From contig NZ_SSHJ01000022.1 in NCBI RefSeq assembly GCF_005925345.1, forward strand, positions 6,909 through 70,908: a stretch of DNA of 64,000 nt, written 5' to 3'. A model generated the notes under the pieces. It was given only the letters and a program-made list of their open reading frames with translations, searched no databases and was not told the DNA's origin. Both the position numbers and the translations under genes were made by a program. Within the stretch, counting starts at the first letter, position 1; every line of letters begins with the position of its first letter. The stretch is from Pedobacter ureilyticus. Lineage in GTDB: Bacteria > Bacteroidota > Bacteroidia > Sphingobacteriales > Sphingobacteriaceae. Shown here piece after piece: positions 40,265 through 42,623 of this stretch.

Positions 40265-40807
40265 TTACAGATGAGTAACTTCTATTAAACCTTTTCCGCC
40301 ACTATAATCAATAGCACTACTGCGCCACTCATGCGGCTCGTTCACAAAACCCGCTACCACTGGATTATAGTGTATGTAGTTAGCTTTTTGCTCAATTACT
40401 TCAACACTCCATAGCTCAATTGGATGATTATCGTGTTGCCAAAATTGATATCCTTTTACGTTACTACTTTTAGCACCTGCTCGTTTGAACATCCACAGCA
40501 TCCACTCTCGCCTACTTTCTTTTGCATTTTCTTGAATAGCTTTCACTATTTGTTTTGAAGTGGGCTCTTTCAACCTGCCCAAAACCATTTGTGGGCTTTT
40601 ATCATCTGTTCTAAATATTAAATGTACATGACTAGGCATGATGCACCAACAAAACACCTCCATTCCTAAGTTTTTTCTGCAATAATTAAAACTCTCCAAT
40701 AAAATCTCGCTGTAAATAGGCCGAACGAATACATCAATCCAATTTACTACTGCAAAGCTCACGAAATATAAGCCTTCTTTATTATGAAATTTATATTTGC
40801 TACTCAT
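40265..40807 (-). CDS. REP-associated tyrosine transposase (RAYT, Y1/HUH family)
   Basis: 180 residues of the Y1 transposase family. The metal-binding HUH motif is MPSHVHLIF (H60, H62); the catalytic tyrosine is in QKANYIHYNPVVAGFV (Y144 or Y147). RAYTs cut and join single-stranded REP hairpins and are thought to spread them while staying domesticated in the genome. Here the gene is bracketed by REP palindromes in opposite orientation, the usual RAYT unit. The frame is intact, so the protein is probably active. Confidence 0.92.
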   Translation of the reverse strand: MSSKYKFHNKEGLYFVSFAVVNWIDVFVRPIYSEILLESFNYCRKNLGMEVFCWCIMPSHVHLIFRTDDKSPQMVLGRLKEPTSKQIVKAIQENAKESRREWMLWMFKRAGAKSSNVKGYQFWQHDNHPIELWSVEVIEQKANYIHYNPVVAGFVNEPHEWRSSAIDYSGGKGLIEVTHL

Positions 40808-40845
40808 ATTAGATAAATGAATTTACGATTTTCTTTTAATTAAAA

Positions 40846-40866
40846 GCACACGCCAAAGGCGTGCGC
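40846..40866 (+). repeat. REP palindrome 3 (upstream of RAYT)
   Basis: GCACACGCC, AAA, GGCGTGCGC, followed by TAGC as in REP 1. It lies about 40 bases before the RAYT start, on the opposite side from REP 2. Confidence 0.88.
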
Positions 40867-40934
40867 TAGCGCTGAGAAATTTTAAAAGCGATTTACCTAG
40901 GCTCAGTAAGTTTTAAAAGTTTCGATTTTTTTTA

Positions 40935-40964
40935 TTTCTATTTTCAACTTTTTTCCTACTTTTG
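40935..40964 (+). promoter_or_regulatory. Promoter of the leader peptide and MATE pump
   Basis: A TACTTTTG box (40957-40964) matches the Bacteroidota -7 consensus exactly; a weak TTTC lies 18 bases before it at the -33 place. The start site would be near 40971, giving a ~135-base leader before the MATE gene. Confidence 0.6.
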
Positions 40965-40985
40965 AGTATCAAAATCTCAACAACC

Positions 40986-41021
40986 ATGAAGTTTTTTGCA
41001 GTCCGCATCAGAATAGCTTAA
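40986..41021 (+). CDS. Candidate regulatory leader peptide (MKFFAVRIRIA)
   Basis: An 11-codon frame ending in TAA, about 15 bases after the predicted transcription start and 85 bases ahead of the MATE pump gene. It contains Arg-Ile-Arg. Arg/Lys-X-Arg/Lys motifs in short leaders are known to stall ribosomes bound by macrolides or ketolides, for example in ErmD leader peptides. A hairpin sits between the leader and the pump. This suggests translation-dependent control of the pump by an antibiotic (inference). Random short frames are common, so the position and promoter are the main support. Confidence 0.45.
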   Translation: MKFFAVRIRIA

Positions 41022-41055
41022 CAAAGCAGGGCTTCTACATCTTAAAACAATTAAT

Positions 41056-41074
41056 GATGCTAGCTTTTAGCATC
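41056..41074 (+). promoter_or_regulatory. Hairpin between leader peptide and MATE gene
   Basis: Perfect 7-base stem GATGCTA/TAGCATC around loop GCTTT. T-rich sequence follows about 12 bases later. The left arm's GATGC can also pair with GCATC inside the leader (41005-41009), over the codons for Arg-Ile, so alternative structures are possible. Confidence 0.5.
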
Positions 41075-41105
41075 TCATGGTATTTCCTTTTTATTATCTT
41101 TATAT

Positions 41106-42530
41106 ATGACACAACCTATTGAGGCAAAATCACGTTTGTCTAATTTTTTTAACGTACTTGTACAGGCATTTAAAGGTGCCGAAATCGATTATACTTCCAT
41201 CAGTATCAGAAAAGCTATTGTACTTTTGGCAATTCCAATGATGTTGGAAATGATTATGGAATCGGTTTTTGTATTGGTAGATCTTTACTTTGTAGGGCAT
41301 TTACCTAATAGCGCCGAAGCCATCCAAATTGTAGGCTTAACCGAATCTGTTTTAACTATTATTTACTCTTTAGCTATGGGTTTGGGCATGGCCGCTACGG
41401 CTGTAGTTGCCCGCAGAATTGGCGAAAAAAATACCGAAGCAGCATCAAGAGCTGGTATGCAAACCATTGCTATCGCCGCAACAATAGCTATCGTAATCAG
41501 TATTATAGGTTTAATTTTTGCCAAGGATATTTTATTACTGATGGGCGCTACAGAAAGTACTGCTACAGAAGGAATTACCTTTGTAAGAATAATGATGGGT
41601 ACCAGCATAGCCATCATGTTACTGTTTCTTATTAACGGTATTTTTAGAGGCGCTGGTAACGCAGCTATCGCTATGCAAAGTTTGTTTATAGCTAATATCA
41701 TTAACATTACCTTATGCCCTATTTTAATACGTGGCCTAGGCCCAATACCCGCCCTAGGTTTAACCGGCGCTGCTTTGGCTACTGCAATTGGTCGTAGCAC
41801 AGGTGTGCTGTATCAAATTTTCCATCTGGCAAGAGGCAGTAACAATTTACAAATGAAGCTGGCTTACCTAAAGCCTCAGACGGCTCAAATTAAAGCGATC
41901 GTCAAAATTGCAGCGCCGGCAGTTTTTCAATTTAGCATTGCTTCTTGTAGTTATATTTTTTTACAAGAATTGGTAGCTACCACCGCCGGGGAAGTTGGTT
42001 CTGCGGGCTTTTTAACTGGGTTGCGGTTAATGATGTTTTTCATTTTACCAGCTTGGGGACTGAGCAATGCAGCCGCCACTTTAGTTGGTCAGAACATGGG
42101 AGCTGGAAGAATGGACAGAGCAGAACAATCTGTATTGGTAACGGTAAAGTATGCTGCAATTTTTATGGCAGTAGTTACTATATTGTTTTTAACCTGTGGA
42201 CACTTATTTGCGTCGTTCTTTACAGAAAACCAAGAAGTTAGGAAGGTAGCCGTTGAAGCTTTAAGGATAATGAGCTACGGATTTGTACTTTATGGTGTAG
42301 GAATGGTGCTTATAAGTGCATTTAATGGCGCTGGCGATACTTGGACACCCACTAAAATTAACGTGTTTGTATTTTGGTTGTTCCAAATACCTTTAGCCTA
42401 CTTCCTCGCTAAATATTTAACAATGGGACCAACGGGTGTATTTATAGCCATTCCAGTAGCCGAAATTGGAATTACTATTGCTGCTTATTTTATCTTTAAG
42501 AAAGGTAATTGGAAGAAAATAGCGGTTTAA
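41106..42530 (+). CDS. MATE-family multidrug efflux transporter
   Basis: 474 residues with about 12 transmembrane helices in two repeated halves. Typical features are the starting segment RKAIVLLAIPMMLEMIMESVFVLVDLYFVGHL and RMVG-type loops (GFVLYGVGMVLISAFNGAGDTWTPTKIN in the second half). It exports drugs or metabolites by exchange with Na+ or H+ in the inner membrane. It is preceded by a leader peptide and hairpin, so expression may depend on an inducing drug. Confidence 0.93.
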   Translation: MTQPIEAKSRLSNFFNVLVQAFKGAEIDYTSISIRKAIVLLAIPMMLEMIMESVFVLVDLYFVGHLPNSAEAIQIVGLTESVLTIIYSLAMGLGMAATAVVARRIGEKNTEAASRAGMQTIAIAATIAIVISIIGLIFAKDILLLMGATESTATEGITFVRIMMGTSIAIMLLFLINGIFRGAGNAAIAMQSLFIANIINITLCPILIRGLGPIPALGLTGAALATAIGRSTGVLYQIFHLARGSNNLQMKLAYLKPQTAQIKAIVKIAAPAVFQFSIASCSYIFLQELVATTAGEVGSAGFLTGLRLMMFFILPAWGLSNAAATLVGQNMGAGRMDRAEQSVLVTVKYAAIFMAVVTILFLTCGHLFASFFTENQEVRKVAVEALRIMSYGFVLYGVGMVLISAFNGAGDTWTPTKINVFVFWLFQIPLAYFLAKYLTMGPTGVFIAIPVAEIGITIAAYFIFKKGNWKKIAV

Positions 42531-42539
42531 TCGTTTAAA

Positions 42540-42609
42540 ACTGTCATTCTGAGCGCAGCGAAGAATCTACTTAATTGATTAAGATTTCTCGTAGCCTCGG
42601 AATGACAGT
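42540..42609. repeat. Inverted-repeat element in convergent junction (second family)
   Basis: Arms of about 28 bases (left core CTGTCATTCTGAGCGCAG, right CGGAATGACAGT) around a short loop. Sequence differs from copies 1-3 but the location, between converging MATE and ddl genes, is the same. Confidence 0.85.
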
Positions 42610-42623
42610 AGGTTAATGTTCCT

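Follow-up and report, generated by a model that had tools for sequence, protein, structure and literature searches.

Introduction

The leader peptide of ErmDL and ErmK (MTHSMRLRFPTLNQ) undergoes macrolide- and ketolide-induced ribosome arrest at its Arg-Leu-Arg (RLR) motif (PMC8298421, PMC4335068). Specifically, arrest on ErmDL places Leu7, the middle residue of Arg6-Leu7-Arg8, in the P site (PMC8298421). Ketolides stop ribosomes mainly at Arg/Lys-X-Arg/Lys (+X+) sequences, yet not every +X+ arrests and the context matters (PMC8298421). For erythromycin acting on ErmDL the motif is less critical, and Ser4, which lies two residues before the first Arg, can be replaced only by Ala or Gly (PMC8298421). 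Leaders of the sequence MTASMRLR control the macrolide efflux genes mef(E)/mel by transcriptional attenuation, and the variant MTASMRLK is listed at msr(A) (PMC4335068). Among Bacteroidota, Flavobacterium psychrophilum is reported to control operons for amino-acid biosynthesis by leader-peptide attenuation (PMC9723704). Additionally, Bacteroidetes mRNAs are described without Shine-Dalgarno sequences, with initiation tuned by structure and by an A at -3 (PMC6847099). No title among the literature matches listed, which were mostly the best 10-20 of more and covered few subscription papers, concerns a MATE leader or MATE attenuation in Bacteroidota.

The present analysis concerns a 64,000-nucleotide stretch of Pedobacter ureilyticus DNA (contig NZ_SSHJ01000022.1), referred to as the window, in which a short open reading frame (ORF) with a +X+ motif precedes a MATE family efflux transporter gene.

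Results

The MATE locus and its leader

The features of the leader and pump region are collected in Table 1. The MATE protein of the window matches Pfam MatE with an E-value of 2.4e-55 and TIGR00797 with 248.8 bits (cutoff 147.4), and no equivalog model reaches its cutoff for this protein. By sequence, the solved proteins nearest to it are PF0708 (E 2.4e-38) and, lower on the list, BH2163 (1.2e-30), and Pedobacter helvus is among the nearest named relatives, with 87% identity (best 80 of 223 confirmed loci). In the window, Rfam 15 at gathering scores returns three tRNAs only, and the leader region matches no Rfam family.

Table 1. Leader, RNA helices and pump gene in the window (positions counted from its first nucleotide).
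Feature	Position	Strand	Remarks
Bacteroidota -7 promoter box TACTTTTG	40957-40964	+	presumed leader-MATE transcript
P0 5' strand ACCATGA	40983-40989	+	overlaps leader start codon; in MFE fold
Leader ORF MKFFAVRIRIA and stop	40986-41021	+	11 codons; ATG 40986; TAA 41019-41021
P1 outer 5' arm AGTCC	41000-41004	+	leader codons 5-7; covariation
+X+ motif Arg7-Ile8-Arg9	41004-41012	+	within leader ORF
P1 inner stem GCTT/AAGC	41016-41019 / 41024-41027	+	leader stop codon spans 5' arm and loop
P1 outer 3' arm GGGCT	41029-41033	+	shortly after leader stop; covariation
P2 hairpin GATGCTA-GCTTT-TAGCATC	41056-41074	+	perfect 7 bp; arms 41056-41062/41068-41074
P0 3' strand TCATGGT	41075-41081	+	25-31 nt before MATE start codon; in MFE fold
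MATE family efflux transporter gene	41106-42530	+	474 aa; subfamily TIGR00797; Pfam MatE

The box upstream of the leader conforms to TAnnTTTG, which we take to be the Bacteroidota -7 promoter consensus. Of the 91 +X+ leaders, 85 have this pattern 26-36 nt 5' of their ATG, compared with 2/91 for a control stretch 90-150 nt upstream, and the position of the box suggests that leader and pump share one transcript.

A gene for a REP-associated tyrosine transposase lies upstream of the leader at 40265-40807 on the - strand (NF047646, 90 bits, cutoff 80), and a palindrome beside it, at about 40845-40880 (by eye), likely makes the two a REP/RAYT pair. Additionally, an imperfect inverted repeat, GTCATTCTGAGCGCAGCGAAGAATCT ... 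AGATTTCTCGTAGCCTCGGAATGACAG, is seen by eye 3' of the MATE gene at about 42541-42610; it is REP-like and perhaps also a terminator.

Conservation of the leader across relatives

MATE orthologues were drawn from named genomes (80 loci, the best of 223 confirmed), from the genus (111/119 genomes at E <= 1e-80), from the family (96/301 genomes at E <= 1e-150) and from the class (13/295 genomes), and 100 further upstream stretches were fetched beside the loci returned by the ortholog searches. The leader scan considered ATG frames starting 95-140 nt 5' of the pump in 223 upstream regions, 206 of them distinct, and the class-level loci L257-L265 were read separately. The scan falls into a Flavobacterium set of 69 regions (loci L011-L081, among which a few records bear other names) and 138 regions outside it, one locus (L052) being counted in both halves.

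Outside the Flavobacterium set, a short frame of some kind is found in 122 of the 138 distinct upstream regions. In 91/138, a count of related sequences and not of independent events, the ORF at the leader position carries the +X+ motif, and a short ORF of about 8-20 codons, upstream of a resistance or efflux gene and transcribed with it, is a hallmark of the ErmDL/Mef(E)L class. The 91 leaders group into class A (MKFFAVRIRIA, the form of the window; nine leaders), class B (MIVSREKFGC; seven), class C (MIVSAIRLRF; 45) and class D (MKVFAVRLRF; 24), with six others; singleton forms include MKFLVVRTR, MIVLKARYVQ, MIVVATLRIR and MKIAIVPMRFKIRG. The commonest form is MIVSAIRLRF, the RLR of which is that of ErmDL and Mef(E)L. 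When 54 MATE proteins are placed in a tree, their clades match leader classes A, B and C, which indicates that these leaders are inherited together with the gene; class D is represented in the tree by one row only (L010), on a long branch.

A sequence-only reading of this DNA had described the promoter box, the 11-residue frame, a perfect 7-base hairpin and T-rich DNA ahead of the MATE gene, all of which are present, and had suggested searching related Sphingobacteriaceae for a short frame with Arg-X-Arg before MATE orthologues. Such a frame does recur there, in the 91 regions above; frame and motif are both conserved, and the codons do not drift without synonymous bias (see below). We have little doubt that the short frame is conserved and translated, and that it serves the pump as a regulatory leader.

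Several orthologues, among them L175, L176, L180, L181, L205 and L215, show a different arrangement by eye. Their leader is absent, and 20-45 nt ahead of the MATE gene lies the stop of an upstream frame whose last residues are AYSI or AYSV, as if the pump had been taken over by another promoter.

The Arg/Lys-X-Arg/Lys motif

The motif is RLR in 58 of the 91 leaders, RIR in 12, RFR in 11 and REK in five, and RGK, RTR, RAK, KAR and KIR occur once each, which puts Leu, Ile, Phe, Glu, Gly, Thr or Ala at X. The first charged residue is encoded by CGT in 74 leaders, AGG in seven, CGC in six, CGA in two and AAA in two, and the second by AGG in 70, AGA in nine, AAA in seven, CGC in four and CGT in one. 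The charged residues are thus retained through synonymous codons or Arg/Lys exchange as X drifts, which fits the charge rule of +X+ arrest and not arginine starvation. Arg-X-Arg occupies codons 7-9 in 77 core leaders, a set that like the 91 was selected for +X+, so that the constancy of both charged residues inside either set is circular. Two positions ahead of the first Arg, 72 of these 77 have Ala, two Ser, two His and one Tyr (Ala/Ser in 74/77); by eye, a small residue two before the first charged residue is absent in the REK, KAR and LRIR forms.

A less biased estimate comes from R1, a model of the leader, which matches in 98 of 150 sources, or 93 distinct loci once five loci fetched twice are removed. 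A +X+ motif in an ATG frame is kept at 86 of these 93 loci, with the reservation that R1, built from 79 +X+ leaders, itself leans to the motif, and the corresponding background is 147 of 1045 unrelated ATG frames of 9-14 aa at the same loci. Leaders without +X+ or ATG account for the remaining 7/93: L089 and L114 (RIH), L100 (HLR), L170, L178 and L195 (RTC), and L192, in which AVRLRF is readable by eye with no in-frame ATG. Peptide-level selection on a +X+ motif within about the first ten codons, as in the ErmDL/Mef(E)L class, is therefore indicated by 86/93 against 147/1045, and the Flavobacterium set does not share it.

RNA structure of the Sphingobacteriaceae leader

RNAalifold on alignment A1 (79 leader regions) returns one helix, the outer part of P1, in which codons 5-7 pair with the bases just past the stop. 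Within this helix, 98.5% of the cells are paired and double changes occur at 4/5 pairs; pair 38-72, for instance, is AU in 44 and GC in 33 sequences of A1. The covariation amounts to 0.279, compared with 0.156 (sd 0.011) in shuffled alignments and at most 0.094 in slid ones. The inner stem has a counterpart in other classes, GGTT/AACC (by eye). The 5' arm of P1 would be covered by a ribosome arrested on the motif. The outer helix is missing from the window's own MFE fold, and folding of the P1 region in Sphingobacteriaceae is barely better than in shuffles (mean z -0.69). The P2 stretch folds better than shuffles, with a mean z of -1.88 over 91 sequences and of -2.04 over 67 of the Flavobacterium set.

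The P0 duplex, which joins the leader start to a region 12-45 nt ahead of the pump, beats shuffled controls in classes A-D (-12.33 vs -9.05 in class A, for example), and the own pairing averages -9.94 vs -9.18 for partners from other classes (better in 53/91, worse in 23/91). It is not stronger than within-class swaps, so that support for P0 is moderate. An additional short hairpin after the stop, RAGG..CCUY, which is mutually exclusive with P1, occurs in 40/45 leaders of class C and 21/24 of class D (23.1 and 7.6 expected with downstream letters shuffled), and in 0/9 of class A, 0/7 of class B and 0/6 of the others.

The sequence-only reading had also proposed that GATGC of the hairpin (41056-41060) pairs alternatively with GCATC (41005-41009) over the codons CGC ATC. 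The two are complementary in the window. With G-U pairs allowed, this pairing is kept in 7/9 class A leaders (0.6 expected) and 33/45 of class C (20.8), as against 7/24 of class D (10.0), 0/7 of class B and 0/6 of the others; with Watson-Crick pairs only, it is found in 2/9 of class A, 1/24 of class D and no other. In a looser test, the longest pairing between codons 6-10 and the 5' side of P2, own and shuffled values are 5.33 and 4.24 for class A, 6.29 and 5.86 for class B, 6.64 and 5.97 for class C, 5.5 and 5.58 for class D, and 4.17 and 4.22 for the others. Because the alternative is present in class A, and above chance in class C, and is not kept in the other three of the five leader groups, it may act in the window's own clade and is rejected as a general switch. 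Of the earlier interpretation, the conserved short frame and its Arg-X-Arg stand, and the alternative fold does not extend beyond classes A and C. The fold of the window RNA, which the same reading had put forward as a check, is not unusually stable (z -1.07, a stability equalled or exceeded by 30/200 shuffles).

In Sphingobacteriaceae, opening the pump start costs 3.85 kcal/mol, so that it is already fairly open; here, as in the duplex and loose-pairing figures, a small error comes from class D, in which the MATE start was placed by homology 3 bases past the likely ATG. With a ribosome parked at X, this start opens no more easily (mean +0.09 kcal/mol; easier in 12/91, harder in 17/91), and with a terminating ribosome, in class C, it is harder to open in 15/45 and easier in 2/45. 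Hiding of the pump start was rejected for Sphingobacteriaceae, with duplexes between leader and pump start weaker than shuffled ones in classes A-D. A pairing of the class C leader with MATE positions +25 to +36 was likewise dropped (-12.95 vs -13.08 for within-class swaps; shuffled -12.44). Since the start is already fairly open and a parked ribosome does not ease it, the output step in Sphingobacteriaceae would be sought in P0, in transcription (Rho) or in RNA stability.

A leader complementary to the pump start in the Flavobacterium set

Of the 69 regions in the Flavobacterium set, 58 have a leader that reads MIVSA and then stops, and +X+ occurs in 0/69 of the leaders. The leader codons GUUUCUG pair with CAGAAAC of pump codons 2-4, with a mean pairing probability of 0.92 (67 sequences). 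Across 60 distinct pairs, the duplex averages -12.6 kcal/mol for own partners, -11.7 for within-set swaps, -7.0 for partners from other classes and -6.3 for shuffled ones, and among 34 haplotypes the own pairing beats the swapped one in 24 and loses in seven. Changes on both sides are also seen. In L072 and L045, U-A becomes A-U and the pump codon ACA becomes its synonym ACT; L061 and L071 combine leader ATT with pump AAT and leader TTT with pump AAA.

In line with this pairing, an initiating ribosome on the leader is predicted to cut the opening cost of the pump start by 5.3 kcal/mol (easier in 67/67), and a terminating ribosome by 3.1 kcal/mol (easier in 57/67, harder in 3/67). Given this pairing with the opening codons of the pump, a ribosome on the leader would free the pump, and we accept hiding of the pump start by the leader as the predicted arrangement for this set. 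RNA pairing, and not the peptide, may explain why MIVSA is so constant. A leader ORF antisense to a pump start is described by no title among the literature matches listed.

TAnnTTTG is found in 7/67 of the Flavobacterium set only, and many of its members show TATATTTA (by eye). The 3' arm of P1 in this set is also complementary, by eye, to the bases just before the MATE start (TTAGGATA/TATCCTAA), a possible second switch.

Specificity of the leader and the macrolide site

Model R1 gives one match in each positive genome, 33 of 201 family genomes, with 15 candidates scored per genome under strict filters. All 30 of the match loci that were fetched carry MATE (30/30, tblastn), and the other three adjoin MATE by coordinates. 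A 21-base pattern of the leader end has 11 exact matches in 151 genomes, ten of them at MATE and one away from it (G233, contig 1, 44526-44546); its one-mismatch matches in the same 151 genomes resemble background. Four further loci read by eye (L266, L270, L277 and L279) show no leader-like arrangement. The placement of R1 and pattern matches at MATE indicates that, within the reach of these searches, the leader is specific to this pump.

In 42 of 60 genus genomes, including that of the window, a match was found to a 23S pattern with three positions left open, and every listed copy reads CGGAAAGAC, which we take to be the macrolide-binding form of 23S (A2058 numbering). In those genomes, therefore, the macrolide site is not blocked by sequence. 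To our knowledge, there is no evidence of macrolide export by this MATE subfamily.

Discussion

We consider it reasonably probable that the leader is a ribosome-occupancy attenuator which, in Sphingobacteriaceae, would be tuned to drug-arrested ribosomes. We give about the same probability to +X+ acting as a drug-dependent arrest motif in this family. In the mechanism that we propose, one promoter would give an mRNA with a short leader, mostly of 9-11 codons, and then the pump gene. In Sphingobacteriaceae, the leader start region would pair with the stretch just before the pump (P0); in Flavobacterium, the leader codons would pair with the first codons of the pump; and P1 would cover the leader end. 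With no drug, the leader would be translated fast, the RNA would refold and pump expression would be low. A compound in the exit tunnel, macrolide- or ketolide-like, would stop ribosomes at Arg/Lys-X-Arg/Lys once X has reached the P site, and the parked ribosome would hold P1, perhaps also P0, open, upon which the pump would be made. The pump is likely switched on through leader occupancy, a direction to which predicted folding in the Flavobacterium set lends support, and the leader probably lets the bacteria turn on the pump when they meet a ribosome-blocking compound.

Other explanations were weighed against this one. The best of them regards the region as a structured RNA regulator, bound by a protein, a small RNA or a metabolite; the short frame would then be incidental, and the constancy of its codons would reflect RNA pairing. 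P1 does overlie leader codons and covaries, and the constant MIVSA codons of the Flavobacterium set are explicable by pairing with the pump start. However, the charged residues persist in rearranged Sphingobacteriaceae leaders (REK, KAR, RTR and KIR), with Arg/Lys exchange and synonymous codons, the base at -3 of the leader ATG is A in 59/91 and a purine (A or G) in 86/91, and the motif is mostly absent from the two other reading frames of the 91 leaders, with 5 and 0 occurrences. We therefore hold this explanation to be unlikely.

Somewhat less probable again is arrest-controlled, Rho-dependent transcription attenuation, for which TnaC is the model by analogy, and in which the parked ribosome would hide a stretch after P1 that has more C than G, or couple transcription. 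Between the leader stop and the pump ATG, C makes up 20% and G 12% (mean of the 91 leaders, and of these leaders only). A simple scan of 40850-41150 returns no intrinsic terminator on the + strand, its one match being on the - strand. The pump start is, as noted, fairly accessible, which makes a step before translation attractive.

The two remaining explanations are both very improbable. Attenuation by charged tRNA-Arg, sensed at two Arg codons, could draw on the fact that most leaders have two such codons, the second usually AGG or AGA and beside the hairpin, but Lys replaces Arg in nine leaders, seven times at the second and twice at the first position (AAA in each), the downstream gene is a MATE efflux gene and not an arginine gene, and the locus, with no + strand terminator by the simple scan, lacks the marks of an amino-acid biosynthesis attenuator. 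A short ORF that senses nothing and only boosts or adjusts translation of the pump, through coupling or reinitiation, would agree with the general function proposed for leader peptides (PMC4833913) and with the predicted opening of the pump start by leader occupancy in the Flavobacterium set, yet it leaves the specific +X+ constraint unexplained, and the 84 nt between leader stop and MATE start in the window are judged long for reinitiation.

We return to the leader as an occupancy attenuator. More tentatively, and at somewhat under even chances, a chromosomal MATE pump in Bacteroidota may be under an antibiotic-sensing attenuator peculiar to that phylum, spread over at least two of its families and working by ribosome occupancy of the leader, with a leader antisense in Flavobacterium and +X+ arrest in Sphingobacteriaceae. 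The compounds that act on the Sphingobacteriaceae leader would then perhaps be natural products of neighbours and not clinical macrolides. If this is true, RLR-type arrest leaders, described at resistance genes of Gram-positive bacteria, would also serve as native, vertically inherited control of a MATE gene in Bacteroidota. It would further suggest that the pump is meant for ribosome-targeting compounds, with the leader offering a direct assay for which ones, and would provide a natural test of attenuation in bacteria that initiate without Shine-Dalgarno pairing. A simple mechanism is suggested by the form in Flavobacterium, a leader ORF antisense to the pump start.

Compared with the leaders described in Bacteroidota, those of F. 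psychrophilum, the present ones are alike in being structured 5' leaders, some with short peptides (PMC9723704), and differ in that the attenuation section in the main text of that report names no MATE leader (PMC9723704). Likeness to Mef(E)L and Msr(A)L lies in a +X+ leader before an efflux gene and in the use, in both, of Lys for the second Arg. On the other hand, mef/mel are mobile-element genes of Gram-positive bacteria with a strong intrinsic terminator (PMC4335068), whereas here the gene is a MATE gene, leader classes A-C follow the gene tree, and a simple scan gives no terminator.

The resemblance to ErmDL and ErmK extends to a short leader before a resistance-type gene and to a hairpin over the leader end. 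With ErmDL in particular, the leader shares RLR(F) at nearly equal codons, X being codon 7 in ErmDL and codon 8 in the core leaders here, and, in most core leaders, a small residue two before the first Arg. It differs in standing before a MATE pump in Bacteroidota, where initiation proceeds without Shine-Dalgarno pairing (PMC6847099), and may differ in its output: the alternative hairpins of ErmDL/ErmK hide a start or form a terminator, and here the simple scan of the window gives no terminator and a parked ribosome is not predicted to ease the pump start in Sphingobacteriaceae. By analogy, we propose that this leader may work like those of ErmDL and Mef(E)L, as a candidate member of their class.
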